Shown here piece after piece: positions 15,110 through 51,607 of a DNA stretch of 51,607 bases. Numbering within the stretch: position 1 is the stretch's first letter; every line of letters begins with the position of its first letter. The DNA comes from Nitrospira sp. SB0677_bin_15 (GTDB taxonomy: Bacteria > Nitrospirota > Nitrospiria > Nitrospirales > UBA8639), in NCBI GenBank assembly GCA_009842645.1, contig VYFB01000085.1, positions 1-51,607 on the forward strand, written 5' to 3'. The notes beneath the pieces are model-generated. The model ran no database searches, was not told the DNA's origin, and worked only from the letters and a program-made list of their open reading frames with translations. Made by a program: the position numbers and the translations under genes.

Positions 15110-15278
15110 GGAACCTCTGATCCCCGATTAAGAACGTCGAGGACATGTTTATCGCACTATCGGGCGCAGGGCTGCGTTGTGTCCTCGCTCAACCCTCACC
15201 TATCTCGATGATACGCTTCGGGTTTCGCTCCGGGACGCCTTGCCCTGCATCCCGCTATCACACTGAATCAGGGGTTCC
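15110..15278. mobile_element. MITE-like element family A, copy 1 (TIR GGAACCTCTGAT..., flanked by TTTA direct repeats)
   Basis: GGAACCTCTGAT...ATCAGGGGTTCC; TTTA at 15106-15109 and 15279-15282; interior shared with copies at 18195 and 51534; carries a nested CCCCGATTAAGAACGTCGAGG insertion. Confidence 0.8.
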
Positions 15279-15399
15279 TTTATCCCTGTTGAAGCCCTGA
15301 TCCGGAATAAGGAATCGGCGGTATTATAGATGACGACGTGGGCATTGGAAAGTAACCCCATGGAGCCGCTCCATCCCTGCTCAGGGGCAGGGACAAACC

Positions 15400-18093: not shown

Positions 18094-18194
18094 ACCGGAA
18101 CGCTGACAGGGTAGGGCCGTCTACAGCGCTCGGAACAGAGTTTATTGGGGCTTATGGAAACAAGGCTATGCGCAGATCAGGCTGTGCCACTAAA

Positions 18195-18336
18195 GGAACC
18201 TCTGATTAAGTGCACTATCGGGCGCATGGTTGCGTTGTGTCCTCGCTCAACCCTCACCTATCTCCCTGATAAGCTTCGGGTTTCGCTCCGGGACGCCTTG
18301 CCCTGCATCCCGCTATCACACTTAATCAGAGGTTCC
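18195..18336. mobile_element. MITE-like element family A, copy 2 (142 bp, 18-bp TIRs, flanked by TAAA)
   Basis: GGAACCTCTGATTAAGTG ... CACTTAATCAGAGGTTCC; TAAA at 18191-18194 and 18337-18340. Confidence 0.88.
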
Positions 18337-18450
18337 TAAAGGCTTTATTAGCGAGTGGTTACGGCACCGGGAGTTGATTGGGTGATTGGAGTTGAGTTAT
18401 TTTAATAGACTGACGGAAACGTTTTTGTTGAGAATAGAAAAGAGGGTGCC

Positions 18451-19146
18451 GTGGCAGAAAAGCAGTCCGGATACCGGGACTATAGCTCTGGAGATATTGC
18501 TGCGTATAGTGTGACCGAGGCGTCCAGATATGTGCGTATTCCCGCACCAACTCTCCGCACATGGGTCGACGGACAATCTTATGGCGAACAATCTATGCGG
18601 TCACCTTTTCTCCCGCTGCTTGATGCACCTGAATATAACCCTACCCGACTTTCCTTTAATAATCTCATTGAGGTGTTTACGCTACGGGCATTAAGAACAA
18701 AGCACGGAATCTCTATTGGAGCGGCACGTGAAGCAATGGGGGTGGCGCAACAGTACTATCAAATTGATCGACTATTCCTTCGGCCAGAGGACTTACGAAC
18801 CCAGGCTGGCAAGTTGTTTCTTAAGAAGTATGGAGAACTCGTTAATCTCAACCGGTCATGCCAGCTTGCCATGGAAAAAGTTCTCAATGACTCTCTCGAA
18901 CGGATTGAACTTGATGACTCCAACCTCCCCATCCGCCTTTTCCCTATGGCCGGCGATACCAACAGAGTGATCGCCATCGACCCTTCCATTGCTTTTGGTC
19001 GTCCATTTATTGTCCGCAACGGCATCTCAACAATAGCTATTATTGATCGTCTTAATGCCAATGAAGACGAGGAGGAAATAGCGGAAGATTATGGCTTGTT
19101 GCCTGAGGAAATGAAGCAAGCAATTATCTACGAACAGGCAGCATAA
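18451..19146 (+). CDS. DUF433-type antitoxin with N-terminal MerR-like HTH
   Basis: YSVTEASRYVRIPAPTLRTWV... and C-terminal IDPSIAFGRPFIVRNGISTIAIIDRLNANEDEEEIAEDYGLLPEEMKQAI (DUF433-like). Confidence 0.75.
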   Translation: MAEKQSGYRDYSSGDIAAYSVTEASRYVRIPAPTLRTWVDGQSYGEQSMRSPFLPLLDAPEYNPTRLSFNNLIEVFTLRALRTKHGISIGAAREAMGVAQQYYQIDRLFLRPEDLRTQAGKLFLKKYGELVNLNRSCQLAMEKVLNDSLERIELDDSNLPIRLFPMAGDTNRVIAIDPSIAFGRPFIVRNGISTIAIIDRLNANEDEEEIAEDYGLLPEEMKQAIIYEQAA

Positions 19147-19148
19147 AC

Positions 19149-19565
19149 GTGATCTTTTTTACGGACCGTGATTTGGGTTCGTTATTTCCCAAGATTCTCT
19201 TAGCCGCAGGCATTCAAGTCGAAACATACAACGACCATTTCAAAGACAACGACCTATCTGATGAAAGCTGGTTGTCAGAGGTTGGTCGTAACGAATGGTG
19301 TGCTGTCTCAAAAGATAAACGTATACGCTACAGGCCCAATGAAAGGGAGGCAGTGATGCGGGCCGGTGTCGGTCTTTTTATCGTCATAGGGACAAACGCC
19401 ACCCATAAAGAACTTGCAAATAACTTCGTGGCTACTTACCAAAAGATAGAGATCTTCCTGGAAAAACATCATCCCCCATTCATTGCAAAAGTCTATCGAC
19501 CGTCCGCTAAAGAATCGCAAGGCAGAAATAAAGCAGGGCGCGTCGAGTTGTGGTACTCACCTTAA
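19149..19565 (+). CDS. PIN-like (DUF5615/VapC45-like) toxin
   Basis: IFFTDRDLGSLFPKILLAAGIQVETYNDHF...DESWLSEVGRNEWCAVSKDKRIRYRPNE; adjacent to DUF433 gene. Confidence 0.7.
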   Translation: MIFFTDRDLGSLFPKILLAAGIQVETYNDHFKDNDLSDESWLSEVGRNEWCAVSKDKRIRYRPNEREAVMRAGVGLFIVIGTNATHKELANNFVATYQKIEIFLEKHHPPFIAKVYRPSAKESQGRNKAGRVELWYSP

Positions 19566-19891
19566 TAGTCGGCATAGGGTCGAATGATCCAGCGTCTCTG
19601 GTTTTTTGCTCCCTCGCCCTCTGGGAGAGAGCCTGTCCTGAGCTTGTCGAAGAGCCTGCCCTGAGCCCGTCGAAGGGAGCCGTGGTGAGGGTGCCTTTCG
19701 TGTTTTCTGTCTTCATAGCCGCACAGTCCCTGCTCGGAGGCAGGGACACGCCTTAGGCAGCATAATCTGACAGATATCGAATAATTGATCTATGAGAAAA
19801 GCCCGCGGAAACCTTCAATGAAAACCTTTGCCCCTGGTGGAAGAGAACCTGCACCGGACTTGATCCAGGGGTTGGGTCCTGCTCGCGCAAA

Positions 19892-20001
19892 CATAGCATT
19901 GCTATGTTTGCTATTTTTTTGCTATGCAATGCTATGATTCCGCTATGAATTGCTGTGCTTTTGCTATGATTCATGCTATGTCATGCTATGATTTTGCTAT
20001 G
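19892..20001 (+). repeat. Helically phased array of the hexamer GCTATG (ten copies incl. two variants) preceded by perfect palindrome AAACATAGC-ATT-GCTATGTTT
   Basis: Hexamer starts at 19901, 19910 (GCTATT), 19921, 19931, 19942, 19952 (GCTGTG), 19963, 19975, 19985, 19996; spacings 9,11,10,11,10,11,12,10,11. Confidence 0.9.
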
Positions 20002-20250
20002 TTCCGCAAAACGGGCGGACAACGGGGAGGAACAGGACACGATCGCGCCCGAAGCCAGCTAGATATTCTCTCAACGCTCATCCTGCCTGTCCTGAGCGTA
20101 GTCGAAGGAAGCGTAGCGGAAGCGGAGTCGAAGGAGGCCTGTCGAAGAGAATGACTGAACACATACAATCCCCGATCCTCATCGAATCAAGGACGGGCTC
20201 TGATCGGTATCCAGTGTCGTTGCCTTTCCTCTTTCTGTCATCCTCGACAT

Positions 20251-20454
20251 TCATAATCGAGGATCCAGCTCGATTTCCCGGACTTCAGCGTCCTTCAAGA
20301 GGTCTTCGGCAACGCTGAAATACTCTCGGATGGCAACTTCAATATTCGCGAATGCCTCCGCTTCAGTTTTGCCCTGAGACCAACACCCGGGTAAGCCTGG
20401 CACGGACGCACTGTAGCCTTCGTCAGAGTGGTGCAGAGCGATTTTGTACTTCAT
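20251..20454 (-). CDS. HicB-like antitoxin (orphan); C-terminus and stop lie inside a dispersed palindromic repeat
   Basis: MKYKIALHHSDEGYSASVPGLPGCWSQGKTEAEAFANIEVAIREYFSV. Confidence 0.8.
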   Translation of the reverse strand: MKYKIALHHSDEGYSASVPGLPGCWSQGKTEAEAFANIEVAIREYFSVAEDLLKDAEVREIELDPRL

Positions 20455-20651
20455 GAAAACCTCCATGCGGTTATGCACCCCGTTGCGGCATGACAGCGCC
20501 TGCTCACCGGTGGAGAAACCTCCCGTACGAATAAACCCAAAAGATGGAAGGGGTTCCTGACCGGTGTCAACATGCCGTGCTGAGAACAATCATACTGGTC
20601 GTACCCATTGGATTTCGTCGGCACCGGCTACCGTCACAATTCCCCCGGGGA

Positions 20652-25302: not shown

Positions 25303-25656
25303 GGGGGTGACTGGCTTCGACGGGGATCAGGAGGTCAACGGTGCGTGTCGAGCTCTCGGAGTCTCGTTAAACCTTCGGGAACCTTATAATTGCCAACGAA
25401 GAATTGGCTCTCGCAGCGTAATCACGACTGCGACGTCTCCCCATGCTTTGTCTGCGGGCATGGATGAGGCGCTACTTCAGCAGGCTGGTCCAATGTTGGT
25501 GCTCAGCAACGGCGGATGAGATTTTTCTGGGCTAGCGAACGTTCTAAGCCGGTCAGTGGGCGTGGACGGTTGCGAATCTTAAAACATTGACTACACACGT
25601 AGGACCGTTGTGCTGAATATCTTCGGACGCGGGTTCAAACCCCGCCACCTCCACCA
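25303..25656 (+). ncRNA. ssrA: Transfer-messenger RNA (tmRNA), tag (A)ANEELALAA
   Basis: 5' GGGGGTGACTGGCTTCGACGGGG; tag ORF GCC AAC GAA GAA TTG GCT CTC GCA GCG TAA; 3' GGGTTCAAACCCCGCCACCTCCACCA. Confidence 0.96.
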
Positions 25657-38756: not shown

Positions 38757-38868
38757 CCCCCTCTCCCTTGGCGGGAGAGGGCCGGGGTGAGGGGGAAACT
38801 CTCAGCGCCTGTCCTGAGCGTAACGATAGTGAAGGCGAAGGAAGCGTAACGGAGTGAAGGCGAAGGGA
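38757..38868. repeat. Tandem juxtaposition of CCCTCTCCC...GGGTGAGGGGG and CCTGTCCTGAGCGTAACG...GAAGG repeats immediately upstream of prfC
   Basis: Shared with many other intergenic regions of the window. Confidence 0.8.
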
Positions 38869-45710: not shown

Positions 45711-45792
45711 CTAGAGTTGCCAGGGCGGACACCCGTTCGCTTCGCTCAGGGCAGGCTCCGGTCCGCCCCTATTCATGAAGATCGTCAAAACC

Positions 45793-45893
45793 GGGGCCGG
45801 GTGATCCTGTAGCACACAGACTCGCTTGCTTACCGTTGCTTCCTTCCGGACCTGGCGGGGTTCACAAGATTCTGCTGCACAGGGCCCAGCCCC
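45793..45893 (-). ncRNA. ffs: Signal recognition particle RNA, small (4.5S) type
   Basis: Reverse complement GGGGCTGGGCCCTGTGCAGCAGAATCTTGTGAACCCCGCCAGGTCCGGAAGGAAGCAACGGTAAGCAAGCGAGTCTGTGTGCTACAGGATCACCCGGCCCC. Confidence 0.93.
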
Positions 45894-51442: not shown

Positions 51443-51533
51443 CGGCAACTGAGTTTCAATCCGCGCGCAGGTTACGCGATAAATGCCGGAGTGCCTCCTG
51501 CGAAGATGTGCTGACCGGCCCATCTTTTGCTAT

Positions 51534-51607
51534 AGGAACCTCTGATTTAGTACACTATCGGGCGCATGGCTGCGTTGTGTCCTCGCTCAACCCTCACCTA
51601 TCTCGAT
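51534..51607. mobile_element. MITE-like element family A, copy 3 (cut by window end)
   Basis: AGGAACCTCTGATTTAGTACACTATCGGGCGCATGGCTGCGTTGTGTCCTCGCTCAACCCTCACCTATCTCGAT. Confidence 0.85.

Follow-up and report, generated by a model that had tools for sequence, protein, structure and literature searches.

Helically phased TGCTATG arrays in one genus of sponge-associated Nitrospirales: a likely protein-binding element and a candidate binder

Why should a short intergenic region of a Nitrospira genome carry ten copies of one hexamer, each about a helical turn from the next? The question is raised by positions 19892-20001 of the window, by which we mean the whole 51,607-nt stretch of contig VYFB01000085.1 (Nitrospira sp. 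SB0677_bin_15) that was analyzed. A first reading, made from sequence alone, had listed ten hexamer positions and the gaps between them, and all ten are confirmed. Eight of the ten are exact GCTATG (starts 19901, 19921, 19931, 19942, 19963, 19975, 19985 and 19996), the variants being GCTATT at 19910 and GCTGTG at 19952, and the gaps in order are 9,11,10,11,10,11,12,10,11 (mean spacing 10.56 bp). The unit is better described as TGCTATG plus an AT-rich spacer of 2-5 nt, which puts the starts of the 7-bp units at 19900, 19909, 19920, 19930, 19941, 19951, 19962, 19974, 19984 and 19995. The local features are:

19900..20001, plus strand: ten-unit head-to-tail array TGCTATG-N(2-5), from pattern, shuffle and phase tests
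19887..19911, no strand: perfect dyad GCAAACATAGC-ATT-GCTATGTTTGC with 11-bp arms, an inverted unit facing the first direct unit
20002..20108, plus strand: 3' module 'ttccgcaaaacgggcggacaacggggaggaacaggacacg...', a type A element common to arrays at unrelated loci and in other genomes
18451..19565, plus strand: DUF433 protein (weak HTH_66 match), then PIN_10 protein, the upstream neighbours (Pfam)
20251..20589, minus strand: HicB-like antitoxin ORF, convergent, downstream (Pfam)

The array is real and far beyond chance: three phased GCTATG are matched 3 times in the window versus 0.00 in 100 dinucleotide shuffles, and the densest GCTATG cluster (~106 bp) holds 8 copies versus no more than 2 in any of 60 simulated windows. 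The upstream gene stops 334 bp short of the array and the HicB-like ORF begins 249 bp past it; we regard the DUF433, PIN_10 and HicB-like neighbours as incidental and outside the array system.

The first reading also saw the array as nucleated by a perfect palindrome. The perfect dyad holds, with longer arms (11 bp) than were given, while the nucleation claim holds only in part. The left arm contains an inverted unit, CATAGCA at 19892-19898, and such a unit (CATAGCA or CATCGCA) opens many arrays, facing their first direct unit; a similar inverted first unit, CATMGCA-TTGCTATG, opens about ten arrays other than the window's. Since many arrays open in this way, the dyad is more like a pair of binding sites than a strict palindrome. 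Across the arrays this inverted unit is often CATCGCA, which pairs incompletely with TGCTATG, and the dyad arms of other array copies are often incompletely paired. The window dyad is followed by a T run, making it terminator-like on the plus strand with an 11-pair stem, and it meets the criterion for an intrinsic terminator (a GC-containing stem, then a T run). Together with the subsequent TATTTTTTTG it scores as terminator-like, although about one such match is expected by chance; terminator function is a possible side role that is still open to it.

How widespread are such arrays? In the window's own genome (2.55 Mb, 156 contigs) the three-unit pattern is matched 41 times, at 11 places, and a reversed control pattern not at all; allowing GCGATG adds one more place, on contig C20, for about 11-12 arrays. 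Within a set of 41 genomes (this one and 40 relatives), arrays occur in 9 of 14 genus members and in 0 of 27 tested relatives outside the genus. A non-exhaustive scan over 85,488 species gave long variable-spacer arrays solely in sponge Nitrospirales MAGs; matches elsewhere were only simple tandem repeats (steps 5, 9, 10 or 11) or chance-like three-unit runs. The family is found only in part of a single genus of Nitrospirales associated with sponges, 'bin75' in GTDB or Ca. Nitrosymbion, the latter a name proposed for the 'Nitrospira sp. bin75' genus, which is described as predominantly sponge-associated (PMC11812461). The check put forward by the sequence-only reading, a comparison with shuffled and other genomes, is therefore passed, as phased arrays are absent from shuffles and from other genera. 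Beyond that reading's reach were the genus-wide dispersed family, the incidental nature of the PIN/DUF433/HicB genes, and the existence, at another place in the genome, of a gene for a candidate binder. We found no paper on such arrays in the literature searched.

Parsing about 50 arrays gives the unit TGCTATG, with TGCTATA (the commonest), TGCGATG and TGCTATT as main variants, and spacers of 2-5 nt that are T-rich and 76% A+T. Unrelated loci share two types of array end: type B, and type A, which includes the window copy and has a ~100-bp 3' module. The window's 3' module is 77-84% identical over 75-108 bp to those of loci L106, L124 and L147, and the module of L072 has the same start.

The spacing could reflect the helix or merely the manner in which repeats multiply. 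Across 467 adjacent gaps, 209 are 10, 201 are 11, 35 are 9 and 19 are 12. Errors are compensated: the gap after a 9 is 11 in 30 of 32 cases, and the gap after a 12 is 10 in 15 of 19. Taking one array per orthologous set, dropping the first two gaps and permuting gaps within arrays, the lag-1 gap correlation is -0.41 versus -0.07 ± 0.07 for the permuted gaps. Unit pairs 40-130 bp apart show a coherence that peaks at 10.4-10.5 bp. Duplicated dimers could mimic such compensation. However, spacer identity at lag 2 is 0.423, versus 0.416 between different arrays (it is 0.37-0.42 at lags 1-4), and since these spacers are no more alike than unrelated ones, slippage is not the origin and there is no sign of dimer duplication. 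The expectation for a slippage microsatellite, that neighbouring copies be more alike than unrelated ones, is not met. The first reading's claims of helical phasing and of a non-slippage origin both hold, and compensation without dimer duplication is most simply explained by selection holding the phase.

The units themselves are also conserved. At orthologous arrays they are substituted at 73 of 1298 positions (5.6%) versus 388 of 1058 (36.7%) for spacers, and they change much less than the flanks as well, which differ at ~24%. These counts use ungapped blocks only, with units defined on one sequence only, and units aligned out of register may inflate them, notably the spacer figure. At orthologous loci unit and phase are kept while spacers have diverged, the second outcome that the sequence-only reading had named as a check. 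The word is kept by selection, and so, on the simplest explanation, is its spacing.

What kind of element is this? One array abuts the xthA stop codon in sense and another, in antisense, the stop codon of what we take, from reading the sequence, to be a DHH-type gene (it has no Pfam match at E 1e-5). Arrays lie upstream of purE, of a Xan_ur_permease gene and of a gene for a HARE-HTH protein, and many others lie at 3' or convergent gene ends; the neighbours include exonuclease III, the DHH-type protein, ThiC, PurE, cyclophilin, AcrB, a TonB-receptor, NuoF and others. The arrays obey no strand rule and keep to no functional class of gene, which indicates a general, DNA-level element.

Several other identities can be set aside. 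A toxin-antitoxin operator, suggested by the PIN and HicB neighbours, is ruled out because the arrays occur in both orientations and adjoin diverse, unrelated housekeeping genes. An RNA-level element is ruled out by the lack of any Rfam family or strand preference, and a phage or plasmid origin because the viral matches are simple tandem repeats. A coding repeat, also rejected by the first reading, is ruled out since the array gaps break the reading frame.

Some arrays have unusual surroundings. At the 3' ends of L078, L114, L120 and L154 the array runs into an inverted array (TGCTATG... then CATAGCA...), and these junctions form long imperfect palindromes, including upstream of a type I hsdM gene. 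On contigs C2, C35, C138 and C148 of genome G000, arrays lie ~120-400 bp from contig ends, so the arrays or their surroundings may break short-read assemblies, perhaps via strain variation. Downstream of the DHH-type gene in G001 and G007 (L231, L234) there is a diverged AT-rich stretch where other species have an array, and the array detector finds nothing significant in it; the stretch may be a decayed array or one with a changed motif.

Which protein might read the arrays? Just behind one conserved array lies a gene encoding a HARE-HTH protein of 139-148 aa, and thiC comes after it; in G000 the gene occupies contig C110:2830-3264 (locus L254). Among the 14 genus members the gene is present in G000, G001, G003, G005, G006, G011, G012 and G013; it is absent from G002, G004, G007, G008 and G010, and G009 has a fragment with a stop. 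It occurs in 8 of 9 array-bearing versus 0 of 5 array-free genomes (P 0.003, ignoring kinship). This co-occurrence is shown, but the contrasts are few: a two-gene tree groups seven of the eight positives in a single clade (97% support), leaving G006/G010, G004 and G007 as independent contrasts, and other accessory genes may possibly share the same presence profile. In G004, a genome without the gene, units at these loci have decayed (4 of 23 exact, 17%, versus 38-67% in HARE-positive genomes). The sole exception among array-bearers is G010, where a good xthA array persists although the gene is missing; G001 has the gene and few arrays.

In all 8 carriers the HARE-HTH gene has its own array upstream, 45-60 bp before the ATG in seven genomes and farther in G006, and seven of the eight share one inverted unit near the 3' end. 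Because the gene sits behind its own array, the protein is probably autoregulated. Relatives were sought in 238 genomes from the order and in a sample of 396 from the phylum. Outside the genus only one intact relative came up, 38% identical and encoded in G110, a genome free of arrays; searches of plasmid and viral records did not turn up the protein. In G006 there is one further match, which is much weaker.

HARE-HTH domains occur in RNA polymerase delta, ASXL and restriction-linked proteins, and HARE-HTH proteins have been proposed as readers of modified bases (PMC11037411). The candidate resembles these in matching PF05066, weakly: all 8 orthologues match, with a best E of 5.3e-5, and the one shown in full reaches 20.4 bits against a cut-off of 25.9. 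It differs in its association with phased arrays, which is not described in the papers found. The structural model is helical and of mediocre confidence (pLDDT 67), with a long N-terminal helix and a winged-helix-like domain predicted; Foldseek gave no significant PDB match to it, and a sequence search of the PDB gave nothing usable. The array-linked hsdM was also considered as binder and rejected, being absent from array-rich G003 and G005 and present in array-free G007 and G009.

The geometry is nearest to PhoB/ArcA-type direct repeats and ParR/parC iterons, without membership in either being established. PhoP binds 7-bp direct repeats with a 4-bp spacer (PMC4832192) and ArcA 11-bp direct repeats (PMC3798270), and sites of the PhoB/ArcA type can carry further repeats at a distance of one or two turns (PMC4832192, PMC3798270). 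Like these OmpR/PhoB operators (Pho box, PhoP, multi-repeat ArcA sites) our arrays consist of 7-bp head-to-tail repeats with a short spacer, one turn apart, and by analogy they may be bound cooperatively. The repeat test (~7-bp direct repeats at 10-11 bp spacing) is met, while those for a cognate tracking regulator and for sites in promoters are not: no OmpR-family gene tracks the arrays, which reach 10-20 units rather than a few and often lie at gene 3' ends. In the type II plasmid centromere parC, bound by ParR, and in tubC, bound by TubR, phased repeats precede the binder's own gene, with autorepression and a helical nucleoprotein filament (PMC5016525). The arrays share phased direct repeats upstream of a candidate binder gene, the binder being inferred, but they are many dispersed chromosomal copies and the candidate is HARE-HTH-like rather than ribbon-helix-helix; no actin- or tubulin-like motor gene (ParM-, TubZ-like) was found among the array neighbours scanned. 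REP/BIME elements and MITEs are short, intergenic, multi-copy, clade-limited dispersed repeats. The arrays are likewise short, intergenic, many-copied and clade-limited, with some ends shared at unrelated loci, which meets one MITE/REP test; no terminal inverted repeats or target duplications are established, and the conserved core is a helically phased 7-mer with free spacers rather than a stem-loop or terminal inverted repeats.

By a modest margin, we favour a cooperative head-to-tail protein-binding array, probably for an autoregulated HARE-HTH protein, as the best overall explanation; there is no binding experiment. That some protein binds the arrays is likely, an inference without binding data, and the cooperative binding role suggested by the sequence-only reading survives the tests which that reading proposed. 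That the binder is the HARE-HTH protein, inferred again without binding data, could as easily prove wrong as right. In this view a protein would contact each 7-bp unit TGCKATR (core G..AT) on the same helix face, once per turn, and many monomers or dimers would align head to tail and bind double-stranded DNA cooperatively. The most likely binder would be the HARE-HTH protein, oligomerizing and controlling its own gene. Such a filament would work close to the promoter at purE, the Xan_ur-type permease gene and the HARE gene. At gene 3' ends, including the window copy, it might insulate adjacent units from each other, stand as a roadblock between them or help to organize the nucleoid, though we lean against the arrays having such an effect there, which is in any case only inferred. 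A bolder and rather unlikely possibility is that filaments of the autoregulated HARE-HTH protein, with one turn per unit, on dozens of dispersed arrays partition the chromosome or insulate genes.

The rival that survives best, and remains possible, is a binding array read by some other protein of the cell, whether an OmpR/PhoB-family regulator, a general nucleoid protein or a ribbon-helix-helix protein of the ParR kind, with the HARE-HTH gene just one target. The similar repeat geometries of PhoP (PMC4832192) and ArcA (PMC3798270) and the array of G010 without HARE-HTH speak for it. Against it, no OmpR or RHH gene adjoins arrays among the neighbours scanned, save for one RHH match, FitA-like and weak, that lies ~1 kb away from the window array. 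An OmpR-family binder in particular is disfavoured, as OmpR-type domains (PF00486) do not track arrays: there is one each in array-rich G012 and G013, and four in array-free G004.

A DNA-shape element is very unlikely. In that reading no specific binder is involved: the phased T-rich spacers, together with TA steps, would produce static curvature, and this would serve to package DNA or insulate genes. The spacers are indeed T-rich, 76% A+T and phased at 10.4-10.5 bp, and A-tract phasing at 10-11 bp is known in prokaryotic genomes (PMC3940949; PMC4132750). However, it is the exact unit that is under selection and not the AT-rich spacer (5.6% versus 36.7% change), and GCTATG is unnecessary for curvature alone. 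Equally improbable are overlapping extended -10 elements (TG-C-TATGAT, with TTGCTA 18 bp upstream) acting as a polymerase landing strip or decoy. The HARE gene's array has three promoter-like matches versus 0.9 expected and TGCTATA is the commonest variant unit, but neither the window region nor the purE region has a promoter-like match, C3 is conserved though free in extended -10 elements, and the 3'-end arrays lie in both orientations with a one-turn phasing that promoters do not need; promoter activity as a side role is possible and not ruled out. A neutral tandem-repeat or MITE-like family without cellular function, for which type A and B ends common to unrelated loci, the gain and loss of elements and local duplication in a few arrays (L101, L154) can be cited, is very unlikely given phase compensation without dimer duplication, conserved units at orthologous sites and the absence of such arrays elsewhere.

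Inferences of helical phasing usually rest on two or three sites, whereas here there are dozens of independent arrays with free spacers, and the correction of spacing to 10.4-10.5 bp amounts to a natural experiment on face-of-helix recognition and on the helical repeat in vivo. The protein-binding reading also suggests, in a form open to testing, what a small HARE-HTH protein might do, and it supplies a case, inside one sponge-symbiont genus, of a binding-site network whose growth, movement and decay run in step with its candidate protein gene. The bolder filament reading, if true, would mean a nucleoid architecture, clade-specific and sequence-programmed, whose origin, spread and decay go together with those of its protein gene.

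Other elements share the window. Short repeats of type CCTGTCCTGAGCGTAGTCGAAGGA occur at 19628-19675, 20085-20147 and 38817-38866, and also adjoin arrays at unrelated loci. A palindromic MITE-like dispersed repeat of ~150 bp, with ends AACCTCTGATTAAGTG / CACTTAATCAGAGGTT, lies at 18192-18341, 15154-15279 and 51530-51604; it folds at -70 to -82 kcal/mol, and copies 87-98% identical lie near many arrays in this and related genomes. Rfam places a tmRNA gene at 25303-25656 (plus strand) and a bacterial small SRP RNA gene at 45792-45891 (minus strand).
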